In this document: positions 1,746 to 24,717 of the stretch, piece after piece
Numbering within the stretch: position 1 is the stretch's first letter
Layout: the number at the start of each line of letters is the position of its first letter
Source of the DNA: a virus
IMG/VR virus record: IMGVR_UViG_3300038551_000315
Coordinates: 1 to 26,408 of that record
Strand: one strand, 5' to 3'
Length of the DNA stretch: 26,408 bases
Made by a program: the position numbers and the translations under genes
Notes under the pieces: generated by a model
The model's database searches: none
Told to the model about the DNA's origin: nothing
Seen by the model: the letters and a program-made list of their open reading frames with translations, nothing else

Positions 1746-2236
1746 GCCGTTCGCTCGCCTGCTTCGCCCTGGCGCTGCTGAGCGCGGCGCTCGCCCTGCC
1801 AGCATGCGCGACCCTCGGCGCGGGCCGCACGTACCGGTCGGACGTGGCGGCCGACTGCCGCTACTACGACGACTCGCACCTCGCCTGGAGCGCGGTCGCC
1901 ACCGCGGGGTCTTCCGTCGCGGGCGGGACGAGCATCCTGCTCACGGTGGTGGACGGCGTCGTCGTGGACGAGGACGACGCGCGGGACTGGACCCTCGGCC
2001 TCGCGGTCACGGCGGCCGTCGGCGCCGTCCTGTCCGCCGTCGCCGTGCCCCTGGCGTCCGAGTACGCTGCCCGGTTCGCGGAGCGGTGTCGCGACTCGGC
2101 CGAGCCCGAGCCGGAACCCGAGCCGCCGCGCGATGCGGGGCCGGACCCGGAGTTCGCGCCGGTACCGGGGATGTCGGGGACCGGGGCCGACGGGCTGACG
2201 CCGGAGGAGATGGCCCCGGCGGAGGTCGTCCCATGA
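1742..2236 (+). CDS. Putative phage-encoded lipoprotein (164 aa)
   Basis: The protein starts with a typical signal peptide: basic SR, a hydrophobic Ala/Leu core, then a lipobox LPAC with the cysteine at residue 22. This predicts export and lipidation by the host Lgt/LspA pathway. After the cysteine come two further hydrophobic stretches, one around residues 55-80 and one around 83-105. The tail is acidic and proline-rich, with a Glu-Pro repeat near residues 120-128. The GTG start overlaps the preceding stop (GTGA) and the stop overlaps the portal ATG (ATGA), so it is locked into the head operon. Phage lipoproteins can act in superinfection exclusion or as outer spanins. Neither role can be assigned here, and no lysis genes are adjacent. 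Confidence 0.7.
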   Translation: MSRSLACFALALLSAALALPACATLGAGRTYRSDVAADCRYYDDSHLAWSAVATAGSSVAGGTSILLTVVDGVVVDEDDARDWTLGLAVTAAVGAVLSAVAVPLASEYAARFAERCRDSAEPEPEPEPPRDAGPDPEFAPVPGMSGTGADGLTPEEMAPAEVVP

Positions 2237-4080
2237 CCCAGGACTCCGGCGGGGCGCGCGAGGTGGCGGAAGCCGCCCGCGAAGGGGCGACCTTCCGCGA
2301 GGCGGTCCTGAAGGCGCAGGTCTTCGGCGAGCGAACCATCCCCGCCTCGACGGTGCTCGCGCAGGACGAGCAGGAGAAGGGCTTCGTCGCGGCCGGCGCG
2401 ATCCTTCCGCCCTACAACCCCGAGTCGCTCGCGATCCTCCTGGAGCACAGCAACGCGCTCCGCCAGTGCGTCGACGCCTACTGCGTGAACGTGGAGGCGT
2501 TCGGCCACCGATGGGAGCCGGTCGTCGACCTGGAGTCGGACGACGCGAGGGAACGGATCCGCGCGGCCCTGGAAACGGAGCGCGGGCTGGAGGCGGGGGC
2601 GCCGCCGCCGACGGACGCGGAGGTGACCGCGAAGCTGGAGGAGGTCGCGCGCGAGATGCGGCGCGAGAAGGTCAAGCTCGACGCCTTCTTCGAGTTCTGC
2701 TCCGTCAACGTCTCGTTCCCCGAGCTTCGCCAGATGACGCGCCTCGACCTGGAGACGCACGGCAACGGGTACTGGGAGGTGCTTCGGAACGGCGCCGGCG
2801 CGATCGTTCAGTTCTCGTACGTGCCGGGGCACACGATCCGCCTGATGCCGCTCGACCCGACTCCGGTCGTGGTGGACGAGCCGGTGCGCGTCTCGCCGTT
2901 CCAGTTCGACGCCTACAAGACGCCCCGCCGGTTCCGCCGCTACGTCCAGATCTACGACACGCGGACGGTGTACTTCCGGGAGTTCGGCGACCCGCGGGTC
3001 ATGTCGCGCAAGACGGGACGATACTTCGAGAGCGCGGACGCGCTCGCGAAGGCCGACGCCGCCGACGGGCCGGCGGCGGAGTTGATCCACTTCAAGGTCC
3101 ACTCCCCCCGCTCGGCCTACGGCGTGCCCCGGTGGATCGGGTGCCTGCTCGCCGTGCTCGGGTCGCGGATGGCGGAGCAGGTCAACTACCTCTACTTCGA
3201 CAACAAGAGCGTGCCCCCGCTCGCCATCCTCGTTTCGGGCGGGCGGGTGAACGACGAGACGGCGAGGCGGATCAAGGAGTTCATCGAGAACGACATCCGC
3301 GGGCAGGGCAACTGGCACAAGGTGCTGGTGATCGACGCCGCCGCCGCCGACGACGGCTCGATCAACTCCGGCCGCGCGCGGATCGACATCAAGCCGCTCA
3401 CGTCGGCGCAGCACAGCGACGCGCTCTTCCAGGAGTACGACGCGCGGAACATCGAGAAGGTCGGCAACGCCTTCCGGCTCCCGCGAATCCTCCGCGGCGA
3501 CAGCCGGGAGGTGAACCGCGCCACGGCCGAGGCCGCCATCGCGTTCGCCGAGATCCAGGTCTTTTCCCCGCTGCGCGAGCAGTTCGACTTCTGGATGAAC
3601 CGGCAGATCCTTTCGCGCATGGGGATCCGCTACTGGCGGTTCCGGTCCAACGCGCCGTCCCTGCGCGACCCCGCCGCCCTGGCGGGCGTCGTGCGCGACC
3701 TCGTCAACGCGGCGGTCCTGACCCCGGCCGAGGGGCGCGAGTTGGCCGAGGGGATCTTCAACCGCGAGTTCCGCGTGATCGACGCCGACTGGACGCGGCA
3801 GCCGCTGTCGCTCACGCTCGCCGGGCTCGGGGCGGAGATGGGCGAACCGACGACCGCGGCGCTCCCCGGCGCCGGTCGCGCGGGCGCGCCGGACGAGAAG
3901 CGGCCCCCTGCCTCGCAGCCGTCCGGCCACGTCGCGCCCTGGCTGAAGCGAGCGCGAGACGCGCTCCGCCGCGGGGACGTTCGGCAGGTGGCCGAAGACC
4001 TCGTCGCCGTGCGGGACGAACTGCGCGCGCGAGAGGAGGCGGAGGCCGAGGGCGCCTTCCGCGCGACCGACGGGCACTGA
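2233..4080 (+). CDS. Portal protein (PBSX-type family)
   Basis: The 615-residue protein forms the dodecameric ring at the capsid vertex through which DNA enters and leaves. Its hallmarks are an N-terminal segment with ILPPYNPESLAILLEHS and RQCVDAYCVNVEAFGHRW (about residues 58-95), and the core segment GNGYWEVLRN (about 177-186). The central region reads AYGVPRWIGCLLAVLG (about 296-311), and a clip/stem region contains NIEKVGNAFRLPRILRGDSR (about 406-425). These match the general PBSX-type portal layout. The C-terminal 80 residues are charged and probably helical. ATGA overlap with the lipoprotein stop indicates coupling. The MuF gene begins one base after the stop, the usual portal-MuF pairing. 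Confidence 0.9.
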   Translation: MTQDSGGAREVAEAAREGATFREAVLKAQVFGERTIPASTVLAQDEQEKGFVAAGAILPPYNPESLAILLEHSNALRQCVDAYCVNVEAFGHRWEPVVDLESDDARERIRAALETERGLEAGAPPPTDAEVTAKLEEVAREMRREKVKLDAFFEFCSVNVSFPELRQMTRLDLETHGNGYWEVLRNGAGAIVQFSYVPGHTIRLMPLDPTPVVVDEPVRVSPFQFDAYKTPRRFRRYVQIYDTRTVYFREFGDPRVMSRKTGRYFESADALAKADAADGPAAELIHFKVHSPRSAYGVPRWIGCLLAVLGSRMAEQVNYLYFDNKSVPPLAILVSGGRVNDETARRIKEFIENDIRGQGNWHKVLVIDAAAADDGSINSGRARIDIKPLTSAQHSDALFQEYDARNIEKVGNAFRLPRILRGDSREVNRATAEAAIAFAEIQVFSPLREQFDFWMNRQILSRMGIRYWRFRSNAPSLRDPAALAGVVRDLVNAAVLTPAEGRELAEGIFNREFRVIDADWTRQPLSLTLAGLGAEMGEPTTAALPGAGRAGAPDEKRPPASQPSGHVAPWLKRARDALRRGDVRQVAEDLVAVRDELRAREEAEAEGAFRATDGH

Positions 4081-4081
4081 C

Positions 4082-5137
4082 GTGGAGCCAGCGCGCCGGC
4101 CGTCATGCTCGGAGGCGGCCGAGGCCGCGGCAGGGATCCTCGACTTCGCCTTCCTGGCGAAGGCGCTCAACCCGCAGAACCGACGAGACTTCCTCGTCAT
4201 CCAGCGGCGCGTGGCGCAGGCGCTTCGCAGCGCGACGGCCGACGAGCAGTCGGCCGCGCTGCGCTCCGCGCTTCGCGGGCTCGACCTCGACTGGCCGGGC
4301 ATGACCGCCTCCGGGCGGGAAGCCGCGCTCCGCGCCGTCCGCGCGTCGCTGCGGGGCTCCGCCCGGCGCGTCGCACCGAAGGTGGAGGAGACGCTCATCC
4401 TGCGCTCGACCGACGTGGCGCGGTCGTCCCGCGCCGGGATCGTCGCCCGGTTCAACCTCTCCATCCCGTCGTCGCTTTCCCTCCGCGACGAACGGTTGGC
4501 GGAGTGGTGCGCGTCGAGCCAATCCCTCTTCGTCCGAGACCGGCTCGGCCGCCGCGCGGATGCCCTCTCGCGGCGGGCGAGGGAGATCGTCTCGCAGGGG
4601 TTGGACTCCGGGCTCGGCCGCGACGACATCGCGGAGCGGCTTGCCGGGTTGGCACAGCAGGGGCTCGGCGGCGCGATGCCCTACTGGCAGGTGGTGGCCG
4701 GCGCGTTCGTGGGCCGGACCCGCACCGCGATCAACGTGTCCTCCTTCGCCGAGGCGGGCGTGGAGAAGTACCGGTGGGAGGCCGTGCTGGACGAGGCGAC
4801 CTGCGACTCGTGCCGGTTCCTGCACGGGCGGGAGTTCAGCGTCCGCAAGGCGAGCGAGCGGATCGACGCCGCGTCGAAGCTGTCGGACCCCGAGGGCATT
4901 CGAACGACCCTGCCGTGGATCAACCGCGGGACGGACGACGAGGGTCGTCCGGTGCTCTACTACGGGTCGGGGGACGACCGCAGCCTCGTCGCCCGCGTGG
5001 AGCAGACCGGCGAGGGCGAGCGGGACAGGATCGGGCGGTACGGCGGGGCGATGAGCAGTTCGGCGTTGGAAGCCGCGGGGGCGTCGACGCCCCCGGCGCA
5101 CGGGGGTTGCCGCTGCACGACGCTCGCCGTCGTGTGA
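4082..5137 (+). CDS. MuF-type minor head morphogenesis protein
   Basis: This 351-residue protein belongs to the phage Mu gpF / SPP1 gp7 head-morphogenesis family, which binds the portal and enters the prohead in a few copies. The diagnostic C-terminal pattern is present. A strand-rich segment (EAVLDEATCDSC, cysteines at 241 and 244) is followed by FLHGREF and ends in HGGCRCTTL (H340, C343, C345). In this family these residues are thought to bind a metal. The first 200 residues are helical and arginine-rich, as usual. The GTG at 4082 is one base past the portal stop. No toxin domain is fused at the C-terminus, unlike many MuF proteins. The ATG at 4105 is in a different frame and was rejected as start. 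Confidence 0.87.
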   Translation: MEPARRPSCSEAAEAAAGILDFAFLAKALNPQNRRDFLVIQRRVAQALRSATADEQSAALRSALRGLDLDWPGMTASGREAALRAVRASLRGSARRVAPKVEETLILRSTDVARSSRAGIVARFNLSIPSSLSLRDERLAEWCASSQSLFVRDRLGRRADALSRRAREIVSQGLDSGLGRDDIAERLAGLAQQGLGGAMPYWQVVAGAFVGRTRTAINVSSFAEAGVEKYRWEAVLDEATCDSCRFLHGREFSVRKASERIDAASKLSDPEGIRTTLPWINRGTDDEGRPVLYYGSGDDRSLVARVEQTGEGERDRIGRYGGAMSSSALEAAGASTPPAHGGCRCTTLAVV

Positions 5138-5150
5138 CCGGGGAGGAAGC

Positions 5151-5456
5151 ATGCAAGCCACGGGCACCTGGACGAAGTTGCTGACCGAGGGCCAAATCGC
5201 GGATGTCGTCCGCGCGTTCGAGGCGGCGATCGAGTCGAGCTTCAAGTCGGACGCCGTCCTGCGACCCGTGCGGACGCGGGACGAGATCAAGCGCCGGTTC
5301 GACATCTGCGCGCGCGTCTTCGAGGAGTTGCGCGTCGGGCGGAACTGGTCCATTCCGCGGATCCGCGACGTGCTTCCTCGCCTCCTGCGGTGCGAGCTTG
5401 ACGGGGCGGCGTGGCCGGTGGAAGATGGGCAGTCGTGGTCGCCGGACGCGACGTGA
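5151..5456 (+). CDS. Hypothetical phage protein (101 aa)
   Basis: The ATG at 5151 follows a strong ribosome-binding site (GGGGAGGA), 13 bases after the MuF stop. The protein looks helical. Residues 10-60 alternate charged and hydrophobic positions (IADVVRAFEAAIESSF, RDEIKRRFDICARVFEEL), then comes a short WSIPRIRDVLPRLLR segment. There is no signal peptide or membrane segment. I do not recognise the family. Its position between MuF and the maturation protease suggests a small head or assembly factor, without proof. Confidence 0.75.
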   Translation: MQATGTWTKLLTEGQIADVVRAFEAAIESSFKSDAVLRPVRTRDEIKRRFDICARVFEELRVGRNWSIPRIRDVLPRLLRCELDGAAWPVEDGQSWSPDAT

Positions 5457-5767: not shown

Positions 5768-8700
5768 GTGAAGGTCGCGGAGATCGACCCGACCTCGCTG
5801 AAGGGGGAGCCGGACGATGCGCTCCTCTCGCTGCACCTGCGCCTCCACCAACTGTTCGCGGCGAACTTCGCCGGCAACGACAAGCTCTCCACCGCCGGGA
5901 TGACGCGCGAGGAAGTCGTCAACGCCGAGTTGCTCGTGCAGGCCGAGATGGCGAGGCGCGGGATGAAGCACGAGGCCGACGACGAACTCGCGCGAGAGGC
6001 GGAGGCGCTGCGCCGCTCGACGGAGAAGGGGCTCGCGCCGATCCACCCGAGCGGCGAAGACCGTGGCGACGTGCTCCGCCTCGATGACGTGCTCCCCCAC
6101 TTCCGGTCCTTCAAGCTGCGGATGCCCTTCCTCTACCTCGTCGGCGGGCTGGCGAACAAGGGGGAGACGAAGAACGACATCGACCTGCTCCTGCGCGGGC
6201 CCGTCCCCGAGGAGATGCGCCGAGTGATCGAGTTCCGCCTGGGGCGGATGCTTCCGGCGGAGTTGTCGTCGCGGATCCAACTGCACGACGACGACCTTGG
6301 GGGGCCGTTCACGAGCCACGTCGAACTCGCGGACCTCGTCGTCGAGATGAGGCCCCGGTTCGAGGTGAAGCAGATGCGGCTGGACAAGGCCGACGATCCG
6401 CTGCTCGACTGGCCGACGGCGCGCGGCCCGCGGCCCGCATGCCTCCAGTACCACTTCCGCGGGAAGTCCGTGCACGTCGACCTCCGCTTCCAGGTGACCG
6501 ACTACCTCGTCGGGTGGACGCTCGCGGTTCAGATCGCGGGGGCCGTCCCCGACGTGAGCACCGTCGAGGAGGCGCGGCGGATCGCGGACGCCTTCGACGC
6601 GAACGGCAGCCGATACAACAAGCCCATCGTCGCGCCCGCGAAGGTGTACGCCTCGCCGAAGTCTCGCGAGCCGCTGGAGTGGCTCGACATCAAGGGCGCC
6701 GTGTACGAGCCGGGTTCGGTCGGCGCGACTCGGTTCGAGGAGGGGGTCATCGTCGAGGTGGACCGCCCGAAGGTGGAGTGGGGGCTCCAGAAGCCGTACT
6801 CGCACGAGTACTTCCTGACGGGCGGGAAGCACGTCAACGGGATCCTCTTCTTCCGCATGCTCCAGGGCGGGCGGGAGGAAGGCGGCGTCCCGGCGGGGGA
6901 GACGTTCTGGACCGCGTTCGTGTCGAAGGAGGCTCTGCCTTCCGTTCTGAACCGGCGCGCAGTCGAAACGAAGTCGATGCCGCCGGACGGGAAGTCGGGG
7001 CTGCCCGCGACGCTGGAGTCCGCCGTGCCGGCCGAGTTCCGCTACTGGACGAAGAAGGGCGAGGAGGCGCGGAAGGTCCGAGACGCGCTGGTCGATGCGC
7101 GCGTCTTCACCGCCGACTCCGTCAAGGTCGTGGACGGCCTGTTCCGCCACGTCACGACGAAGATGTTCGTCGGGCGCGAGCCCGAGCGGGCGGCGGTCTT
7201 CCGCGGCCCCGCGTTCGACCGCGAGCCCGAGCCCGTCGGCCCGGAGGAGGTCCCGGCGCTGGCGGCGGGGGCGTTCGCCTACGTGATCGCGGGCGACCCG
7301 TTCGAACTCGCGCTCGCCTGCCGGGCGGTGAAGCGACGCGGCGGTGATTGGGCGATCGACGCACCCGACTCGCCGTACTCGCTCGCCTCGCTCGCGGAGG
7401 TGGGTCGCCCGTTCCGGTCCGGCGGGCGCGCGTACGCGGCGAGCGTGCCGGTGGACGGCGAGGTGGAGTGGATCGAGGTGGCGGAGCCGGTGGAGAAGCA
7501 GCCCCGCCGCGTGCCGTTCGCCCTGTCGTGGCAGTTCTGGAAGGGGCCGACGGTCGTGCGCGCCGCTCCTTCGCGTCAGGTCTGGCGGTTCCTCCTCGGG
7601 GGCGACGACGGGCTGCGCGGCTGGGAACTCGCCGCCGACCCCACCGCGAACGATCGCGCTGCCGGGGTACGCCGGGACTTTCCGAACGACGACCTGCTGA
7701 CCTTCGAGGGCGACGTGCCGCCGGGGGAGAAGGTTGGCGGCGTGCCCCTGAACGAGACGAAGAACACGCCGTCCACGATCGCCGTCGTGGACCGCGGCGT
7801 GGCGGAAGTCCTCGACGAGCAGGCGGGCTTCTTCAAGCTGCGCTTGAGCGGTCGCCACCTGAAGGGGATCTTCACGCTGGTCGCGGAGGGGGCGCAGGAG
7901 GCGATGTGGACGTTCGCCCGCGGCGAGCTTCCCGCCAGGACTGCGAAGGCGGAGTCCGTCGGGCCGCTGAAGCTCGCGGACGGCACCACTCTAGCGAACG
8001 TGCAGTTCTGGGACCCGGAGGGGATGAGCGACGCCGACGACAAGGGCGGCGACCGCGAGCGGCTTCGCCCGCTGGCGATCTTCCAGCCGATGAAGGTCGC
8101 GCCGCGCGCGACGAACGAGTTCCGCCGGCTCGACGAGGTGGCGAAGTTCGCGACGCCCGAGGCGCTGAAGGCCGGGATCGTCGTGGATCCGAAGTACAAC
8201 GGGTATCGCTTCGTCGCGGAGAAGGACGCGGGCGGGCGGATCCTGTGCGCGACGGAGGACTACTTCACGCGGCGAAAGACGCCGCTGCCGAACTACGCGG
8301 CGAACCTGCCGGGCGTGGCTGCCGACTTGAAGGCGCTGCCGGGGCCGTTCGTGCTCGACGGGGAGTTGATGGCCTTCGAAGGCGACCAGCCCGTGCAGCG
8401 CGCTGACCTCGCGCGCTACCGCGCCACGACGGGGCCGGTGGACGACTCCGCCGTGCGCGTGATGGTGTTCCGGGCGCTCTACCTCCCGAAGCACGGCAAC
8501 CTCGCCGCGCAGGCAGAGGAGGACAACCGCGCGCTGGTCGAGGCGTTCCTCCGCCGCGCGAAGCACTTCGCCCCCGCGCCGTACCGGCTGGCGAAGTCCG
8601 AGGTGGCGTTCCACGACGCGATCGCATGGGCGTCGAAGGAGCCCGGCTCGGAAGGGGCGATGTTGAAGCTCGCCTCTTCCAACTACTCCCTCGGCGGCGA

Positions 8701-9469
8701 GAGCGACGCGTGGGCCAAGCTGCGGTCCGTCCGCACGGTGAACGCGATCGTCTACCAGCGGGATCCGGTGAAGGACTCGCCGGGCGTGTACAACTTCCAC
8801 TGCGCCGTCGGCCCCATCCCCGCCTCGTCGCGCGACGAGTGGGAGTCGGTCGTCGAGGTGCGAGGGAAGCTGTACGTCCCGGTCGGCAAGACGTTCAACT
8901 CGGCCGTCGAGGCGGACGTTGGCGATTGCATCTCCGTGGACGTGCGGGAGATCATGGACGACCGGCGCGGCGGGAAGCGGGTGCTGACGTGGTACGTGCC
9001 CGCCGTCGTCGGCCCCGTCGACCGCCCGAGCACGGTCGCCGAGGTGGAGGAGTTGCTGGAGTCCGGCGAAACGCGGAAACTGTCCGCGCTCGACCGCGAG
9101 ATCCCGCTGCTGAAGACGGCCGAGGAACGGTTCGTTCTCGGAATCGTGCTGGAGCCCGAGACGGTGGACGCGCAGAACGACATCTATTCGGCAGAGGAGA
9201 TCCGGCTGGCGGCGCACCGTTTCATGGAGGAGTTCGGCGGGCTCGGCCTGATGCACCGCCAGCGAGTGAACGACCGCGTGAAGGTCCTGGAGTCGTACGT
9301 CGCGCCGTGCGACTTCGAGGAGGGCGGGCAGAAGGTGAAGAAGGGGACCTGGATCCTCGCCGTGCGCGTGCTCGACGACGAGATGTGGCGCGCGGTGAAG
9401 GAGGGAAAACTCACAGGGTTCTCCATCGGGGGCACCGGGATCCGCAGGCCGGAACCACGCGGGGCTTGA
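5768..9469 (+). CDS. Giant fusion: nucleotidyltransferase + two LigD-PE-like domains + ATP-dependent DNA ligase + XkdF/S78 prohead protease
   Basis: The protein has 1233 residues. A helical N-terminus (1-90) is followed by a pol-beta-type nucleotidyltransferase signature: VGG (125-127), then NDID with D137 and D139. Residues about 220-370 resemble the 3'-phosphoesterase (PE) domain of LigD, with H229, then HVDLR (H236, D238, R240) and EPGSVGATR (314-322). A second PE-like copy (about 582-725) keeps the fold pattern (KGPTVVRAAPSR) but lacks the His/Asp/Arg set. An ATP-dependent ligase follows: motif I KYNGYR (K809; Asn replaces the usual Asp at 811), motif III LDGE (863-866), motif IV EGAMLK (962-967), motif V WAKLR (982-986) and an OB-like part to about 1090. 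The C-terminus (about 1115-1230) matches XkdF (Peptidase_S78_2), with H1163 in GLMHR and S1219 in GFSIGG. The GTG start has a weak ribosome-binding site. XkdF-type proteases are normally a few hundred residues or less, so the rest is an exceptional fusion. Confidence 0.85.
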   Translation: MKVAEIDPTSLKGEPDDALLSLHLRLHQLFAANFAGNDKLSTAGMTREEVVNAELLVQAEMARRGMKHEADDELAREAEALRRSTEKGLAPIHPSGEDRGDVLRLDDVLPHFRSFKLRMPFLYLVGGLANKGETKNDIDLLLRGPVPEEMRRVIEFRLGRMLPAELSSRIQLHDDDLGGPFTSHVELADLVVEMRPRFEVKQMRLDKADDPLLDWPTARGPRPACLQYHFRGKSVHVDLRFQVTDYLVGWTLAVQIAGAVPDVSTVEEARRIADAFDANGSRYNKPIVAPAKVYASPKSREPLEWLDIKGAVYEPGSVGATRFEEGVIVEVDRPKVEWGLQKPYSHEYFLTGGKHVNGILFFRMLQGGREEGGVPAGETFWTAFVSKEALPSVLNRRAVETKSMPPDGKSGLPATLESAVPAEFRYWTKKGEEARKVRDALVDARVFTADSVKVVDGLFRHVTTKMFVGREPERAAVFRGPAFDREPEPVGPEEVPALAAGAFAYVIAGDPFELALACRAVKRRGGDWAIDAPDSPYSLASLAEVGRPFRSGGRAYAASVPVDGEVEWIEVAEPVEKQPRRVPFALSWQFWKGPTVVRAAPSRQVWRFLLGGDDGLRGWELAADPTANDRAAGVRRDFPNDDLLTFEGDVPPGEKVGGVPLNETKNTPSTIAVVDRGVAEVLDEQAGFFKLRLSGRHLKGIFTLVAEGAQEAMWTFARGELPARTAKAESVGPLKLADGTTLANVQFWDPEGMSDADDKGGDRERLRPLAIFQPMKVAPRATNEFRRLDEVAKFATPEALKAGIVVDPKYNGYRFVAEKDAGGRILCATEDYFTRRKTPLPNYAANLPGVAADLKALPGPFVLDGELMAFEGDQPVQRADLARYRATTGPVDDSAVRVMVFRALYLPKHGNLAAQAEEDNRALVEAFLRRAKHFAPAPYRLAKSEVAFHDAIAWASKEPGSEGAMLKLASSNYSLGGESDAWAKLRSVRTVNAIVYQRDPVKDSPGVYNFHCAVGPIPASSRDEWESVVEVRGKLYVPVGKTFNSAVEADVGDCISVDVREIMDDRRGGKRVLTWYVPAVVGPVDRPSTVAEVEELLESGETRKLSALDREIPLLKTAEERFVLGIVLEPETVDAQNDIYSAEEIRLAAHRFMEEFGGLGLMHRQRVNDRVKVLESYVAPCDFEEGGQKVKKGTWILAVRVLDDEMWRAVKEGKLTGFSIGGTGIRRPEPRGA

Positions 9470-9501
9470 CAACTGGATTTCGGAGGGTCAGGCTCCAGGG
9501 C

Positions 9502-10545
9502 GTGAAGGGCGAGCGAGACGACGAGGACGAAGTTCGACGGCTCACCGACATGGAAGTCGCGGAAGTCTCGCTCGTCGATCGGGCCGCGAACAAGCGGCGG
9601 TATCTCGTCACGAAGCGAGGTGATGCGATGACGCAGGAGACGGAAGTGCGGCCTGACGGGAAGGGTGGACTGACGGCAGCGCCGCAGGACGTGGAGAAGA
9701 AGAACTCCGGCGCGACGCTCTCCGACTTGGCAGGGAAGCTCCTCGCCATCGCCGAGAAGATCAAGAGCGGCACGGATCCCGGCGAGTTCGCGTCCGACAT
9801 CAAGGCGGCGACGACGGCGCTCGGCTCCGTGGCGGAGAAGTACCCGTCCCCGGCCCACAAGGCCGACGGCGAGCCCGTCGAGAAGGGGCCCGCCGCGGAG
9901 AAGCTGAACGAGGCGCTCCAGCGGCTGATGAGCGTGGCGAACAAGCTGAAGGCCGGCGGGAAGCCGGAGGAGTTCGCCTCCGAACTGAAGGCCATCGCGG
10001 GCCTCGTGACCGGCGTCGCGAGCCAGTACCCCGCGCCCGCGCAGAAGGCGGAGGATGCTCCGACGGCCCCGGCGGCCCCGACCATCGCCGCTCCGGCAGC
10101 GCCCGCGGCGGCGGCCCCGGCGGCCCCGAGCGCACCCCCGGCGGCAGCGTCGGTCGAGAAGGGCTCGAAGATCGCCACCGCCCGGCTCGCCAAGCTGAAG
10201 GAACTGCACGAGACGCTCGGCGCGCTGATCAAGGAACTGGAGCCGGAGATCGGCGGGGAGCCGACGGCGGGCACGGCGCAGAAGGCGACGGAGGACCCCA
10301 TCGCCAAGGCGCTGGCCGACGTGACGAAGACGCTCGGCGAGGTCGCGAAGAAGGTGGACGCGCACGCCGCGACGCTCGACCAGATCGCGAAGCAGGCGCC
10401 GGCGTCGACGGCGGTGCCGGTGGAAGGGACGAAGCAGCCGGTCCAGAAGGGCTCCGTCCCGTGGCCGCGCGACATGACCGACGCGCGGTACGATCGGAAT
10501 CGCGCGAAGCCCGAGACGACGTTCTTCGACCGGGCCGGGAAGTAG
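9502..10545 (+). CDS. Scaffold-like capsid assembly protein with duplicated helical repeat
   Basis: The 347-residue protein is rich in Ala, Lys, Glu and Pro. It lies between the protease and the capsid protein, the usual place of a scaffold or protease substrate. Residues 20-35 read EVAEVSLVDRAANKRR. A VSLVDRPAN-like motif usually lies at the end of S78-type proteases or in the next ORF, and it favours the GTG start at 9502 over ATG 9550 or ATG 9628, although the latter has the best ribosome-binding site (GAGGTG). Two 45-residue helical repeats align without gaps (about 73-117 and 135-179), sharing DPGEFASDIKA/KPEEFASELKA and EKYPSP/SQYPAP. An Ala-Pro linker (about 185-215), more helices and a C-terminal WPRDM (321-325) follow. 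The scaffold role is inferred from context and composition. Confidence 0.78.
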   Translation: MKGERDDEDEVRRLTDMEVAEVSLVDRAANKRRYLVTKRGDAMTQETEVRPDGKGGLTAAPQDVEKKNSGATLSDLAGKLLAIAEKIKSGTDPGEFASDIKAATTALGSVAEKYPSPAHKADGEPVEKGPAAEKLNEALQRLMSVANKLKAGGKPEEFASELKAIAGLVTGVASQYPAPAQKAEDAPTAPAAPTIAAPAAPAAAAPAAPSAPPAAASVEKGSKIATARLAKLKELHETLGALIKELEPEIGGEPTAGTAQKATEDPIAKALADVTKTLGEVAKKVDAHAATLDQIAKQAPASTAVPVEGTKQPVQKGSVPWPRDMTDARYDRNRAKPETTFFDRAGK

Positions 10546-10596: not shown

Positions 10597-11553
10597 ATGG
10601 TCGCAGGGATCACGGACAATCGCTCGTTGCTGGAGAAGGCGGACCTCGCGCTGGCGGACCTGCTGTCGGACGGCGGCCTGTTGCAGCCGGCGCAGGCGCA
10701 GACGTTCATGCGCCTGCTGATCGACGAAGCGGTCGTCATGAAGATGGCGACGGTCGTCCCGATGCGCACGCCGAGCCAGCTGATCGAGAAGATCAAGTTC
10801 GGCTCGCGCATCCTGCGCCCCGGCGTGGAGGCGACGGCGCTCGCCGCGACGGAGCGCGTCAAGCCCGACCTGAGCAAGGTCGAGTTGGCCGCGAAGCTCT
10901 TCAAGGCAGAAGTCTACCTCGGCGACGAGACGCTGGAGGACAACATCGAGAAGGACGCGCTCCGCAACACGATCATGCAGATGCTCGGCGAGCGGATCGC
11001 GACCGACCTCGACGAACTGATCCTCAACGGCGACACCGCGTCGGCCGACCTCTTCCTGAAGACGCTGAACGGGATCGTCGCGCAGATCACCGGCGCGGGC
11101 TCGCACACGGTGAACGCGACCGACACGCGCCTGAACAAGGGGATCCTGCGCGACTGCTTCCGCGCGATGCCGTCGCCCTACCTGCGGGCGCCCCAGCGGA
11201 TGGCGTTCCTGACCTCCATCGACGCGGAACTCGACTGGCGCGACTCCGTGAGCGACCGCGCGACGCCGCTGGGCGACGACGCGGTGGTCGGGGCGGGGTC
11301 CATCCCGTACTCCAAGGTGGCGGTCATCGGCGTGCCGATGATGCCGGAGAACGTCGGCACGGGCTCGCACTGCACCTACGTCATCTTCTGCGACCCGAAG
11401 AACATCAACGTGGGCGTCCACCGGGAGATCCGCATCGAGACGGACCGGGACATCTCGGCGGGCGTCCTGAAGGTCGTGGCGTCCCTGCGCGTGGACGTGA
11501 AGTGGGCCGAGATGCCCGCCACGGTGAAGGCGTACAACGTCAAGGCGGCGTAG
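10597..11553 (+). CDS. Major capsid protein (HK97-fold type)
   Basis: The 318-residue protein is the shell subunit by position (after protease and scaffold-like genes) and by its sequence layout. An N-terminal helical stretch (LLEKADLALADLLSDGGLL) leads to LQPAQAQTFMRLLIDEAVVM, a beta/E-loop-like region (about 55-110), a spine-helix-like segment LRNTIMQMLGERIATDLDEL (about 127-146) and a C-terminal strand region ending DVKWAEMPATVKAYNVKAA. The ATG at 10597 follows a strong GGAGGA. There is no extra decoration domain. The stop codon lies in the loop of an inverted repeat. Hairpins on both sides of the gene suggest a protected or individually ended mRNA, in line with the high expression expected of this product. 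Confidence 0.87.
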   Translation: MVAGITDNRSLLEKADLALADLLSDGGLLQPAQAQTFMRLLIDEAVVMKMATVVPMRTPSQLIEKIKFGSRILRPGVEATALAATERVKPDLSKVELAAKLFKAEVYLGDETLEDNIEKDALRNTIMQMLGERIATDLDELILNGDTASADLFLKTLNGIVAQITGAGSHTVNATDTRLNKGILRDCFRAMPSPYLRAPQRMAFLTSIDAELDWRDSVSDRATPLGDDAVVGAGSIPYSKVAVIGVPMMPENVGTGSHCTYVIFCDPKNINVGVHREIRIETDRDISAGVLKVVASLRVDVKWAEMPATVKAYNVKAA

Positions 11554-21186: not shown

Positions 21187-23436
21187 ATGGGCAACGACCT
21201 TCTCGCGTCCAAGGTGATCACGACCGAGGCCGCGCCGGGCATCCGGACGCTGCCGGCGCTGGCGACTGCGGTCCTGGGGATCTGCGGGATCTCCGAGCGC
21301 GGTCCGATGGGGGTGGCGACGCTCTGCACGAGCTTCGAGGACTTCGTCCAGAAGTTCGGGGGCGACTTCGCGAACTCGGCCGCCGTGCTCCAGGTGCGCG
21401 GCTTCTTCCAGGGCGGCGGGCAGTTCCTCGTGTTCACCCGGACCTGCCACTACACGGACATCAACACGCCCGCGACGGCCACGGCGACGACGGGGACGAA
21501 GACGCTGAAGACGGCGGTCGTCGCTCCCACGGCCGGCTACTCGCAGGGGTCGGTCGTGGGGCCGTGGGACCTGACGCCCGCCGACACGCTCGTCGTGACG
21601 GTGGACGGGGGTGCCCCGGCGACGGCGACCTTCAACGCGACGGCCGCCGCGCGGCAGAACGGCGTCGACGAACCGTTCGCCCTGGCCGACAGCCAGACGC
21701 TGACGCTGAAGATCGACGAGGGTGCGTTGCAGACCGTGACGTTCCTGACGGGCGAGTTCGTGGACATCGCGAACGCGACTGCCGAGGAAGTCGCGGCCGT
21801 CATCAACGCCAAGATGACGGGGGGCCAAGCGACGGTCACCGGGGGAGGCAAGCGCGTCACGATCACGAGCGACAAGCAGGGGACCGGGTCCGGCGTCAAC
21901 GTCACCGGGGGGACGGCGAACGCGGCACTCCAGTTCACGACTGGGCTCGTCTCCGGGACGGGCAACGTGGCGGACATCAACGCGGTCTCCAACGCCGAGG
22001 CGAAGGCGATCGTCGAGCTTGCCGTCGCGGGGTGCACGGTGACGAGCGTCGGGGGCTGCGCGCGGATCTCCTCGAACACGACCGGTCCGGCTTCCTCGAT
22101 CCTCGTCGGCGCGGCCTCCACGGCCGACGACGAGATGGGCTTTGACAACGCCACGCACAGCGGGGCCAGCGGAGCGGCCGTGGACACGCTGCGGCTGGAC
22201 GGGAAGGATCCCGGCTCCTACGCGAACGACTTCAAGGTTCGCATCGAGGCGGCCACCTCGGGCGTCTCGGAGGAGTTCAACATGACCTTCGAGCGGTCCG
22301 GGATCGCCCTGGAGCGCTTCCCGAACCTCTCGATGGACGACGCCGCCCCGCGCTACGTCGAGACGATCGTGAACGCCGCCGTCGGGGGATCCGTGTACCT
22401 CGCCGGCACCGACCTCGACGCGGTGGCGTCCAGCCAGCGCCCGGCGAACGGGCTCTACGGGCCGCTGACGGGCGGCGGCGACGGGTTGGCAGGCATCGCC
22501 GACACCGACTTCATCGGCTCGGCCGCGGGGAAGACCGGGCTCCGCGCGTTCGACCTGCACACCCCCGTCGACGTGACCATCCTCGCCGTGCCCGACCGCC
22601 CGACGGCGGCCGTGCATCAGGCGATGTACCAGTACAGCGAGGTGCAGGCCGGCAAGCGGATCTTCTGCATCTTCGACCCGCCCGCGAGCATGGACGCCGC
22701 CGCGATCGTGGCGTACTTCACCTCGACGGCTGCGCTGTACGAGGCGACCGAGGTGGGCGCGATGCTCTGGCCCCGGATCAAGGTCTACAACCCGAACAAG
22801 GACGTGTACGGCGATACCGACGACCTCACCGTCTGCAACTCCGGCTACTGGGCCGCCACGATGGCGCGGGTCGACGGGACGCAGAAGCCGGGCATCTACC
22901 AGCCGCCGGCCGGGATCGAGTATGGCCAACTCCTCGGCGTGATCGGGGTCGAGGCGGAGGCGGTGCTCGACGAGTCGGTTCGGGACGTGGTGTTCCCGAA
23001 GAACGTCAACCCGATCAACCTGGGCGCCGGCTACTACGCGGACGGCGGGCGCTGCGCGAAGACGAGCGGGAACTTCGGCACGATCGGCCAGCGCCGCGGG
23101 GCGTCGTTCATCGAGCAGACGCTGAAGGCCGGGATGCTCTTCGCCAAGCACCGCAACAACAACCCGCGCCTCCGCGCCGAGTGCGACCGGACGACCCGCG
23201 CGTTCCTGCTCCAGCAGATGCGGCGCGAGGCGTTCGCCTCGATGGACCCCGACACCGCGTTCGTGATCGACTGGGACGTGCCGGGCCTGGGGCTCAACAA
23301 CGCGTCGGTGCAGCACCAGCGGCTGCTGAAGGCGCGGATCGGCCTCGCCTTCTCGGACCCGGCCGAGTTCGTGTGGATGGAGTTCAGCGCGGACCTGCGG
23401 GCCATCGAGGAGGCGCTGATCCTGGAGGCCGCCTAG
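21187..23436 (+). CDS. Contractile tail sheath protein with large internal insertion
   Basis: The 749-residue protein polymerises around the tail tube and contracts to drive infection. Sheath hallmarks are the N-terminal APGIRTLPALATAVLGICGI and FGGDFANSAAVLQVRGFFQG (about 15-82), and a core around ILAVPDRPTAAVHQAMYQY and YWAATMARVDGTQKPGIYQP. The C-terminal assembly domain includes RLRAECDRTTRAFLLQQMRR and ends VWMEFSADLRAIEEALILEA. Between residues about 100 and 330 lies a beta-rich insertion built of related modules: TLTLKIDEG to ALQFTTG (about 172-249), then a shorter copy to DEMGFDN (about 320). Typical sheaths are roughly 400-660 residues, so the insertion explains the size. The start follows GGGAGGA. 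Confidence 0.92.
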   Translation: MGNDLLASKVITTEAAPGIRTLPALATAVLGICGISERGPMGVATLCTSFEDFVQKFGGDFANSAAVLQVRGFFQGGGQFLVFTRTCHYTDINTPATATATTGTKTLKTAVVAPTAGYSQGSVVGPWDLTPADTLVVTVDGGAPATATFNATAAARQNGVDEPFALADSQTLTLKIDEGALQTVTFLTGEFVDIANATAEEVAAVINAKMTGGQATVTGGGKRVTITSDKQGTGSGVNVTGGTANAALQFTTGLVSGTGNVADINAVSNAEAKAIVELAVAGCTVTSVGGCARISSNTTGPASSILVGAASTADDEMGFDNATHSGASGAAVDTLRLDGKDPGSYANDFKVRIEAATSGVSEEFNMTFERSGIALERFPNLSMDDAAPRYVETIVNAAVGGSVYLAGTDLDAVASSQRPANGLYGPLTGGGDGLAGIADTDFIGSAAGKTGLRAFDLHTPVDVTILAVPDRPTAAVHQAMYQYSEVQAGKRIFCIFDPPASMDAAAIVAYFTSTAALYEATEVGAMLWPRIKVYNPNKDVYGDTDDLTVCNSGYWAATMARVDGTQKPGIYQPPAGIEYGQLLGVIGVEAEAVLDESVRDVVFPKNVNPINLGAGYYADGGRCAKTSGNFGTIGQRRGASFIEQTLKAGMLFAKHRNNNPRLRAECDRTTRAFLLQQMRREAFASMDPDTAFVIDWDVPGLGLNNASVQHQRLLKARIGLAFSDPAEFVWMEFSADLRAIEEALILEAA

Positions 23437-23458: not shown

Positions 23459-23926
23459 ATGGGCGGCGTGATCGGAACCCCCCGCGTCTGGCGGTCGAAG
23501 TGGAAGTTCGTGGTCGAGATCGACGGCGTCGCGTACGCCGGCTTCGAGAAGTGCGACGGGCTGGAGGCGGAGGTCGCCGTCTCGGAGCACTACGAGGGCG
23601 GCGCGATGATCCCCGACAAGTCGCCGCAGCGCGTGAAGTTCAGCGACCTGACGCTGGAACGCGGCGCGTGCCAGGACCAGGACCTGTACGACTGGTTCGT
23701 GGAGGTCGCGAAGGCCGCCGCCGGCACGGGGCTCGTGGACCCCGAGTTCAAGCGCAACCTGGACATCGTCCAGCAGGAGCGGGACGGGTCGGAGATCGAG
23801 CGGTACCGCGTCTTCAACGCCTTCCCGCGCAAGTTCAACCCGGCCTCGGGCGGGTGGGACAACAACTCGGACGACAACCGCGTTGAGCAGGTCGTCCTCG
23901 CGTACGACTACTGGGAGCGCGTCTAG
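23459..23926 (+). CDS. Tail tube protein (T4 gp19-like family)
   Basis: The 155-residue protein forms the hexameric inner tube inside the sheath. It shows the gp19-like beta-barrel order: WRSKWKFVVEIDGVAYAGFE, then KCDGLEAEVAVSEHYEGG, VKFSDLTLERGACQDQDLYD with WF next, and RYRVFNAFPRKFNP close to the C-terminus before VEQVVLAYDYWERV. The length is normal for this family. The ATG follows GGAGGTG within 15 bases of the sheath palindrome. The stop is enclosed in a six-pair inverted repeat. Confidence 0.9.
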   Translation: MGGVIGTPRVWRSKWKFVVEIDGVAYAGFEKCDGLEAEVAVSEHYEGGAMIPDKSPQRVKFSDLTLERGACQDQDLYDWFVEVAKAAAGTGLVDPEFKRNLDIVQQERDGSEIERYRVFNAFPRKFNPASGGWDNNSDDNRVEQVVLAYDYWERV

Positions 23927-23973: not shown

Positions 23974-24717
23974 ATGAGCACCGTCGTCGCGAAGTGCCCG
24001 TCCGGCCTCGAAGTCGAGTTGCGCGGGCTGGAGGTCCGGGAGGCGAACGTCCTCGCCGACCGGCAAGAGATCCAGAGTGGTACGCTGTTCGACAGCGTCC
24101 TGCGAAACTGCACGATCCGACTCGTCGAGCCCGGCCCGTACAAGTTCACCGAGGTGGTGGACTGGGGCGAGGTCCACGTCGGGGACCGCATGTACGCGCT
24201 GATCCAGATCCGCCGCGCGACGTACCCTCGCCCGTACGAGTTCCGCCTGACGTGCGCCGAGTGCCGGGAATCGATCGATTGGATGATCGACTTGGCCGAG
24301 ATCCCCGTCAAGCCGCTGCCGGAGGCGGCGCGCGAGGCGCTCAGGGGTGACCGGATCCTCTCCGCGAAGTGGCCGCAGTTGGAGGACCGCGTCGTCCGCT
24401 TCCGCCTCGTGATCGGGAAGGACGCCGCGAAGGTGCGTCGGATCGCGAAGCAGCGGCCGAAGGAACTCGCGCTCGTCTCCCTCCTGTCTCGCGTCGTGTC
24501 GGTGGAGGGCGTCGAGGAGTCGAAGCTGACGGAGTTCCTGTCGCACCTCGGAGGCGACGCGATGGTCGGACTGATGGAGATCCTCGACGAGTGCGACGGC
24601 GGCGTGGACACGGAGATCCAGGTCGTCTGCCCGCAGTGCGGCGCGCTCCAGGACGTGGAACTCCCTTTCGGTCGGGCCTACTGGCTGCCGAAGGCGCGCC
24701 GGGCGACGATCCTGTAG
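23974..24717 (+). CDS. Tail assembly chaperone, unshifted product (zinc-ribbon type)
   Basis: This 247-residue product precedes the tape measure gene. It begins with VVAKCPSGLEVELRGLEVRE and ends 15 codons after a slippery heptamer. Two CxxC pairs (C94-C97 in TCAEC and C219-C222 in VCPQC) could bind one zinc ion. The sequence resembles T4 gp26-type baseplate/chaperone proteins in its opening motif. In many phages a protein at this position coats the tape measure during tail assembly and is made in short and frameshifted long forms. The ATG at 23974 follows GGAGGGAA. Confidence 0.8.
   Translation: MSTVVAKCPSGLEVELRGLEVREANVLADRQEIQSGTLFDSVLRNCTIRLVEPGPYKFTEVVDWGEVHVGDRMYALIQIRRATYPRPYEFRLTCAECRESIDWMIDLAEIPVKPLPEAAREALRGDRILSAKWPQLEDRVVRFRLVIGKDAAKVRRIAKQRPKELALVSLLSRVVSVEGVEESKLTEFLSHLGGDAMVGLMEILDECDGGVDTEIQVVCPQCGALQDVELPFGRAYWLPKARRATIL

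Follow-up and report, generated by a model that had tools for sequence, protein, structure and literature searches.

Here we describe a gene that links capsid maturation and DNA repair in one polypeptide. It lies in an IMG/VR virus record (IMGVR_UViG_3300038551_000315), a metagenomic fragment of 26.4 kb that was analyzed at its full length of 26,408 nucleotides and is called the window below. The frame (5768..9469, + strand, GTG start) encodes a protein of 1233 residues in which a nucleotidyltransferase, a LigD-like phosphoesterase, a degenerate second phosphoesterase, an ATP-dependent DNA ligase, and an XkdF prohead protease follow one another. An earlier note, made from the sequence alone, had placed all of these domains in a single 1233-residue reading frame, and this reading was borne out throughout by profile matches, by the comparison of folds, and by the conservation of catalytic residues. 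The residues it had named (D137/D139, H229/H236/D238/R240, K809/E866/E962/K967, and H1163/S1219) are all present and conserved, and the reading could be refined by the type of nucleotidyltransferase (MNT), a third aspartate (D189), and the ligase motif KxNG.

To its sequence, the C-terminal part (residues 1114-1228; 9107..9451, +) owes a firm assignment as a true XkdF (S78_2) protease: PF14550 matched residues 1116-1224 with an E value of 6.9e-28 (97.6 bits against a cut-off of 24), a DNA search gave 3.0e-31, and H1163 and S1219 are conserved in every complete member of the family described below. For the remaining domains, two AlphaFold models, made from family alignments of 12 and 10 sequences (mean predicted local distance difference test scores 76 and 75), were compared with solved structures. 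The ligase adenylation domain (residues 765-985; 8060..8722, +; K809, E866, E962, K967) was recognized by PF01068 (DNA_ligase_A_M; residues 801-985, E 4e-11) and by its fold, which aligned with archaeal DNA ligases at a Z score of about 17 (17.3 to 2cfm); in addition, the sequence profile of the half that spans the second phosphoesterase and the ligase matched PDB DNA ligases at E 1.3e-12. Motif I of this domain is KxNG, not KxDG, and the Glu and Glu/Lys motifs are present. The adjoining OB-fold region (residues 986-1080; 8723..9007, +) is assigned from the archaeal-ligase fold alignment, which reaches model residue 525, and from its presence in members that lack the adenylation domain.

The two phosphoesterase domains were identified by different routes. 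The second copy (PE2, residues 576-722; 7493..7933, +) was matched by TIGR02777 (LigD phosphoesterase) over residues 601-714 at E 1.1e-4, which is below the model's cut-off, and its fold aligned with the LigD-type phosphoesterase 3p43 at Z 16.5; the catalytic His, Asp, and Arg are gone in the alignment, so the copy is degenerate, as had been proposed, with the fold kept. The first copy (PE1, a LigD-like 3'-phosphoesterase, residues 222-400; 6431..6967, +) resembled LigD-type phosphoesterases in Foldseek (E 9.8e-7) and aligned with 3p43 at Z 14.3 over 123 residues. Its H229, H236, and D238 correspond to the Mn triad His42/His48/Asp50 of the LigD phosphoesterase and its R240 to Arg52, and the four residues are invariant in the fused members. 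Pfam LigD_N (PF13298) gave no match to the window protein, and a profile of the nucleotidyltransferase-PE1 part found no phosphoesterase among PDB sequences; the PE1 assignment is made because of the fold comparison, the invariant motif, and weak PF13298 matches in archaeal relatives.

The nucleotidyltransferase (residues 105-212; 6080..6403, +) carries the motif hG[GS]x9DhD and a third Asp (G126, D137, D139, D189), conserved in every member. Its best fold matches of this kind were MNT antitoxins (8xeh and 8xeo), with a modest Z of 6.4 over 69 residues in a part of the model that has low confidence; we read the domain as a probable nucleotidyltransferase of the minimal MNT type. In front of it, residues 1-80 (5768..6007, +) form a conserved N-terminal region that a family profile and BLAST found in relatives as well, including locus L023.

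We considered whether such a gene could be an artifact. The frame is uninterrupted for 1233 codons, while the longest open frame in 200 base-shuffled copies of the window (70% guanine plus cytosine, GC) had a median of 392 and a maximum of 615 codons, and third-codon-position GC was 0.82-0.98 across the entire fusion frame, matching the neighboring real genes; together these values rule out a chance frame. That the window is a 26-kb metagenomic fragment would favor a chimera. Against an assembly error stand the uniform codon composition, the purifying selection reported below, and, above all, the relatives: about 20 other distinct fusions, drawn from many metagenomes and from a single Myxococcota metagenome-assembled genome (MAG), have the same domain order and the same gene place on independent contigs. 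An assembly error was thus ruled out, and the probability that the gene is a chimera or a chance frame is, in our estimate, vanishingly small. Unsupported folds, an assembly error, and absence of the domains from related phages had been set beforehand as findings that would speak against the reading; each was examined, and none overturned it.

The family was collected by three scans of viral contigs and one scan of GTDB genomes and sorted with locally built domain profiles; frames were counted as distinct when their last 300 residues were not identical, so that some close kin (L036-L039) are included. Twenty-one distinct frames, the window's among them, join the nucleotidyltransferase, PE1, and XkdF in one chain, and 18 of these have the ligase. 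The order nucleotidyltransferase-PE1-PE2-ligase-OB-protease is constant, the lengths range from 868 residues (a frame cut by a contig end) to 2262, and the catalytic residues are nearly invariant. In the L036/L038 pair, the ratio of nonsynonymous to synonymous substitution rates (dN/dS) was 0.006-0.049 for the enzyme domains and 0.119 for the protease, indicating that purifying selection is stronger on the enzymes; in the L041/L042 and L043/L081 pairs it was below 0.45 for all domains. The fusions belong to a family of uncultivated tailed phages. One apparent exception, L075, in which the protease appeared to be a separate gene, was read as a frameshift since its apparent near-copy L076 has one intact frame.

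Many relatives have a further domain of about 140 residues, sometimes doubled, ahead of the nucleotidyltransferase, which is absent from the window protein and had no match in Pfam or PHROG. It lies at residues 313-455 of the L002 open reading frame, 27-169 of L038, and 377-509 and 550-690 of L043, and it was also seen in L081, L033, L036, L041, L042, L044, L046, L056, and L023. A hint of a queuine transferase in L034 was not confirmed by Pfam. A 106-kb Myxococcales MAG contig (JACPVI010000063.1) has two different fusion genes, L050 and L051, near its two ends.

In ten related phage records of 37-118 kb, we found exactly one XkdF match per record, always in the fused frame. A single ligase match was present in eight of the ten, again in the fused frame, and none in the other two; PF14550 and PF01068 gave no second XkdF or ligase elsewhere in these records, other protease families lying outside the search. 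D12 methyltransferases followed the same rule in seven records, with at most one per record, in the fused frame. Candidate internal starts for a free protease exist, but neither their place nor a Shine-Dalgarno match is conserved. Since the one XkdF of each record is fused, the protease, which has to enter the prohead, is apparently made only as a fusion. Its gene has a fixed place as well: in the window and in relatives the XkdF-carrying gene sits between the portal and the major capsid protein, and the order portal-MuF-fusion-scaffold-capsid is common to the window and the fused relatives.

The N-terminal enzymes, by contrast with the protease, vary. Seven of the 21 fusions have D12 adenine methyltransferases in addition (one to three per protein), placed either at the front of the chain or between PE1 and PE2, and Pfam confirmed methyltransferase and protease in relatives. 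The proteases closest to the window's (65-75% identity) follow methyltransferases only. In the protease tree these methyltransferase-only proteins form a supported clade with repair-type fusions around it, and cargo labels switch on the tree. The N-terminal cargo is a mosaic of exchangeable domains, with zero to three methyltransferases in varying places and the ligase adenylation domain present or lost, and every recognized cargo is DNA-acting or a nucleotidyltransferase. The D12 methyltransferase-XkdF fusions of phages (L003-L021; phrog_1530) share the protease clade, the gene place, and a DNA-acting N-terminal cargo with the window protein and differ in having one or two methyltransferases as the sole cargo, with no repair domains. 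In this clade the data point to a general rule, by which the XkdF protease stays fixed at the C terminus as the carrier and the DNA-acting enzymes ahead of it change as its cargo.

Several proteins of isolates carry the name DNA methyltransferase, or methyltransferase/prohead protease, but prove to be XkdF proteases (L082:3896-4366, which is PaP1 gp048; L085:2357-3406; L084:2980-3612). We rejected fusions in the isolates PaP1, Lactococcus 56701, and RHph_TM16, whose proteins have 156-349 amino acids with XkdF near the N terminus, so that a methyltransferase cannot fit; the names look as if they had been carried over from true fusions. A Planctomycetota MAG contig (L052, 1167-3896) has a frame in which a LigD-like phosphoesterase is joined to a D12 methyltransferase and which contains no protease.

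Archaeal relatives have the repair set without the protease. In ANMV-1, a virus of methane-seep archaea and the only match of the repair part in the INPHARED phage collection, one protein of 866 residues (AJP62006, annotated as "ATP-dependent DNA ligase") contains the nucleotidyltransferase, ligase, PE1, and PE2, and its gene lies between the portal and a protein with a MuF-like end. It thus resembles the fusion in holding these four domains in one chain adjoining the portal and differs in their order (nucleotidyltransferase-ligase-PE1-PE2), in having no protease, and in belonging to an archaeal virus. The ANMV-1 "MutT-like phage hydrolase" (L029:1913-3193) is a portal protein (PF06381, E 3.2e-22). 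Three loci of archaeal MAGs (L053, 4262-10169; L054, 4173-9818; L055, 2-3154) have the ligase, the OB region, and two phosphoesterases in one or two frames; in L053 and L054, from Archaeoglobales and Thermoprotei, a metallo-beta-lactamase domain stands in front, and the Thermoprotei locus (L054) has a capsid gene downstream. The archaeal relatives gave no XkdF match. The repair set therefore occurs near head genes with or without the protease, and, because archaeal viruses keep it unfused (in ANMV-1 and L054 beside head genes), it may predate its capture by the protease.

We propose that the protease serves as a carrier, bringing exchangeable enzymes that act on DNA into the prohead so that they can heal, seal, or shield the phage genome. 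We give this proposal an even chance of being right; it would explain why a single protease and a single ligase share one chain, why the gene keeps its place, and why the DNA-acting cargo varies. In this model, the MNT nucleotidyltransferase, PE1, the degenerate PE2, and the ligase with its OB fold would be the N-terminal cargo of the prohead protease, whose domain would bring them into the prohead's scaffold core. Once the head has matured, whether or not the protein cleaves itself, the cargo would remain with the packaged DNA and enter the next cell alongside it. There, the phosphoesterase would clean 3' ends, the ligase, possibly already adenylated, would seal nicks or join ends, and in related phages the methyltransferase would mark the DNA; the phage might gain by circularizing its genome or by surviving breaks that host nucleases introduce. 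Since a DNA ligase can be loaded with AMP ahead of packaging, a single sealing event would need no ATP. A stronger form of the proposal, in which the phage head holds a self-contained, Ku-less end-joining machine whose nucleotidyltransferase, phosphoesterase, and preadenylated ligase are delivered to heal and join or circularize ends in the new host, seems doubtful to us. If the carrier model is true, the heads of tailed phages can naturally be loaded with large enzymes that are fused to the protease; the model would then explain how some phages guard or circularize their genomes ahead of any phage gene expression, and it would widen the reach of enzymes of the nonhomologous end joining (NHEJ) type.

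Delivery into the capsid had already been suggested in the earlier note, and the support that it gained here is indirect: one fused XkdF per record, the sole ligase and D12 methyltransferase in the same frame, a fixed gene place, and the swapping of enzymes. The further ideas of the note, that self-cleavage may release the repair domains and that these could mend or circularize genome ends after injection, are conjecture. Delivery and injection are inferred, and several observations weigh against the proposal. Of 72 copies of the T4 protease in the prohead, 3 are found in the mature head (PMC9026906); since most of it leaves the head, entry into the prohead does not prove retention. In an alignment by eye, the positions of PaeLigD His84 and Tyr88 are occupied in PE1 by Glu/Gln301 and an invariant Trp305, and mutation of His84 or Tyr88 inactivates PaeLigD (PMC8656161), so activity of PE1 is not assured. 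The ligase adenylation domain is missing from L030, L046, and L056, which retain the OB region; because of this retention, the OB region may serve beyond the ligase. In L042 (6354-11387) the catalytic ligase Lys is replaced by Glu (motif I ENGR) with the other motifs kept, and either this ligase is inactive or the change is a sequencing error. Finally, no Ku was found in 13 related records, which may be fragments and whose hosts could supply Ku.

Much of the same genomic evidence, namely, the sole ligase, the sole XkdF, and the fixed place, would also fit enzymes that act in the producing cell. Tethered to the prohead by the protease, they would repair nicks, gaps, and blocked 3' ends of concatemeric DNA before or during packaging and would then be cut away or degraded at maturation, with nothing injected. 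The absence of most T4 protease from the mature head (PMC9026906) agrees with this account, which does not on its own explain why the protease is also fused to a methyltransferase, an enzyme that could do its work in the cytoplasm; we consider it rather unlikely. More improbable still is that the protein is a polyprotein whose protease cuts itself off and frees the enzymes in the cytoplasm, so that the fusion merely couples their expression. The C-terminal position of the protease relative to every enzyme and the varying linker lengths would suit such processing, but replication enzymes would hardly be expected in a late head operon, and in the protease-less archaeal relatives the set occupies one or two frames next to head genes.

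Another reading overlaps with the carrier model, sharing its location and differing in the target: the main role would be counter-defense, with the MNT domain nucleotidylating and inactivating HEPN-type toxins and the phosphoesterase and ligase mending cuts made by host nucleases. An MNT antitoxin is the best fold match of the nucleotidyltransferase, and the methyltransferases in relatives fit a shield against restriction. That match is modest (Z 6.4, where the model is weak), and an MNT fold by itself does not reveal the target; as the main role, counter-defense appears to us unlikely, on a par with action in the producing cell.

The individual elements of the carrier model, the XkdF protease and virion-borne multidomain enzymes, are known (the latter a theme described in PMC5512222); what is apparently new is a prohead protease joined to a DNA ligase and a LigD-type phosphoesterase. 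A literature search, which left most subscription papers and all preprints outside its range, found no description of this combination, in line with the earlier statement that it is not known as a described system. The polyvalent proteins of PMC5512222 are likewise large multidomain mosaics, with adenine methyltransferase and Pol-beta-type nucleotidyltransferase domains and predicted delivery on invasion, and the protease and ligase passages of that paper do not contain the prohead protease-DNA ligase-LigD phosphoesterase arrangement.

Bacterial LigD also has a 3'-phosphoesterase and an ATP-dependent DNA ligase in a single chain, and to this extent the comparison with LigD drawn in the earlier note holds. 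It does not extend further: the fusion has an MNT-type nucleotidyltransferase in place of the AEP polymerase of LigD, two phosphoesterase copies, and an attached capsid protease, and no Ku was found. Pfam and NCBIfam scans of the fusion protein gave no AEP-type POL family, a domain that no-POL LigD homologs also lack. Judged by its domain content, the nonprotease part would act as portions of LigD do, yet it cannot be called a LigD, since the scans gave no AEP polymerase domain and its phosphate pocket is a different one. Mycobacteriophages offer the reverse arrangement, in that Corndog and Omega encode Ku and borrow the host LigD (PMC4351075, PMC7719229), while the fusion phages encode a LigD-like part and have no Ku that we could find. 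Corndog appears to circularize by end joining with its phage Ku, and its protease was detected in virions (PMC4351075); an earlier survey that covered about 3,000 actinobacteriophages had not detected any components of NHEJ (PMC7719229).

The proposed route into the head has parallels. P1 DarB, a protein of 250 kDa, becomes part of the head and is believed to pass into the cell (PMC9024508). As a very large DNA-protecting head protein whose gene lies beside portal and protease genes, it resembles the fusion as the carrier model describes it; it differs in having its own N-terminal signal, in being unfused to a protease, and in acting against type I restriction rather than in end repair. In T4, Alt and the internal proteins, as well as beta-galactosidase fused to IPIII, are packaged and ejected (PMC9026906). 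Alt and the internal proteins enter the prohead core during its assembly, are cut by the prohead protease, and leave with the DNA on ejection, much as proposed here for the cargo, but they are products of separate genes with short targeting propeptides and are not part of the protease (PMC9026906).

The window looks like the head and tail genes of a phage with a contractile tail. It opens with a large terminase fragment (1-1128), followed on the + strand by the portal protein (homologous part 2233..4080; PF04860, E 3.2e-23; phrog_12; relatives), a MuF-like minor head protein (4082..5137; phrog_13868, E 3.9e-57; phrog_115, minor head protein), and a small conserved protein with no assigned function (5151..5456; BLAST), which lies between MuF and the fusion in many relatives. 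The fusion gene, supported by its open frame, its codon-position GC, and relatives of the same architecture, is followed by a probable scaffold protein (9470..10545, +, exact start uncertain), which matches the C-terminal part of phrog_3017 and other head families, and by the major capsid protein (10597..11553, +; PF05065, E 7e-8; phrog_1623, E 9.7e-93). Further downstream are a tail sheath (21187-23436), a tail tube (23459-23926), a T4-type baseplate protein (23974-24717), and a tape-measure-like protein (from 24951). An open reading frame that begins at 8626 covers the 3' end of the fusion in a different reading frame (8626-9469) and continues into the probable scaffold gene. The stretch that it shares with the fusion resembles a shadow of the conserved protease DNA and not a gene.

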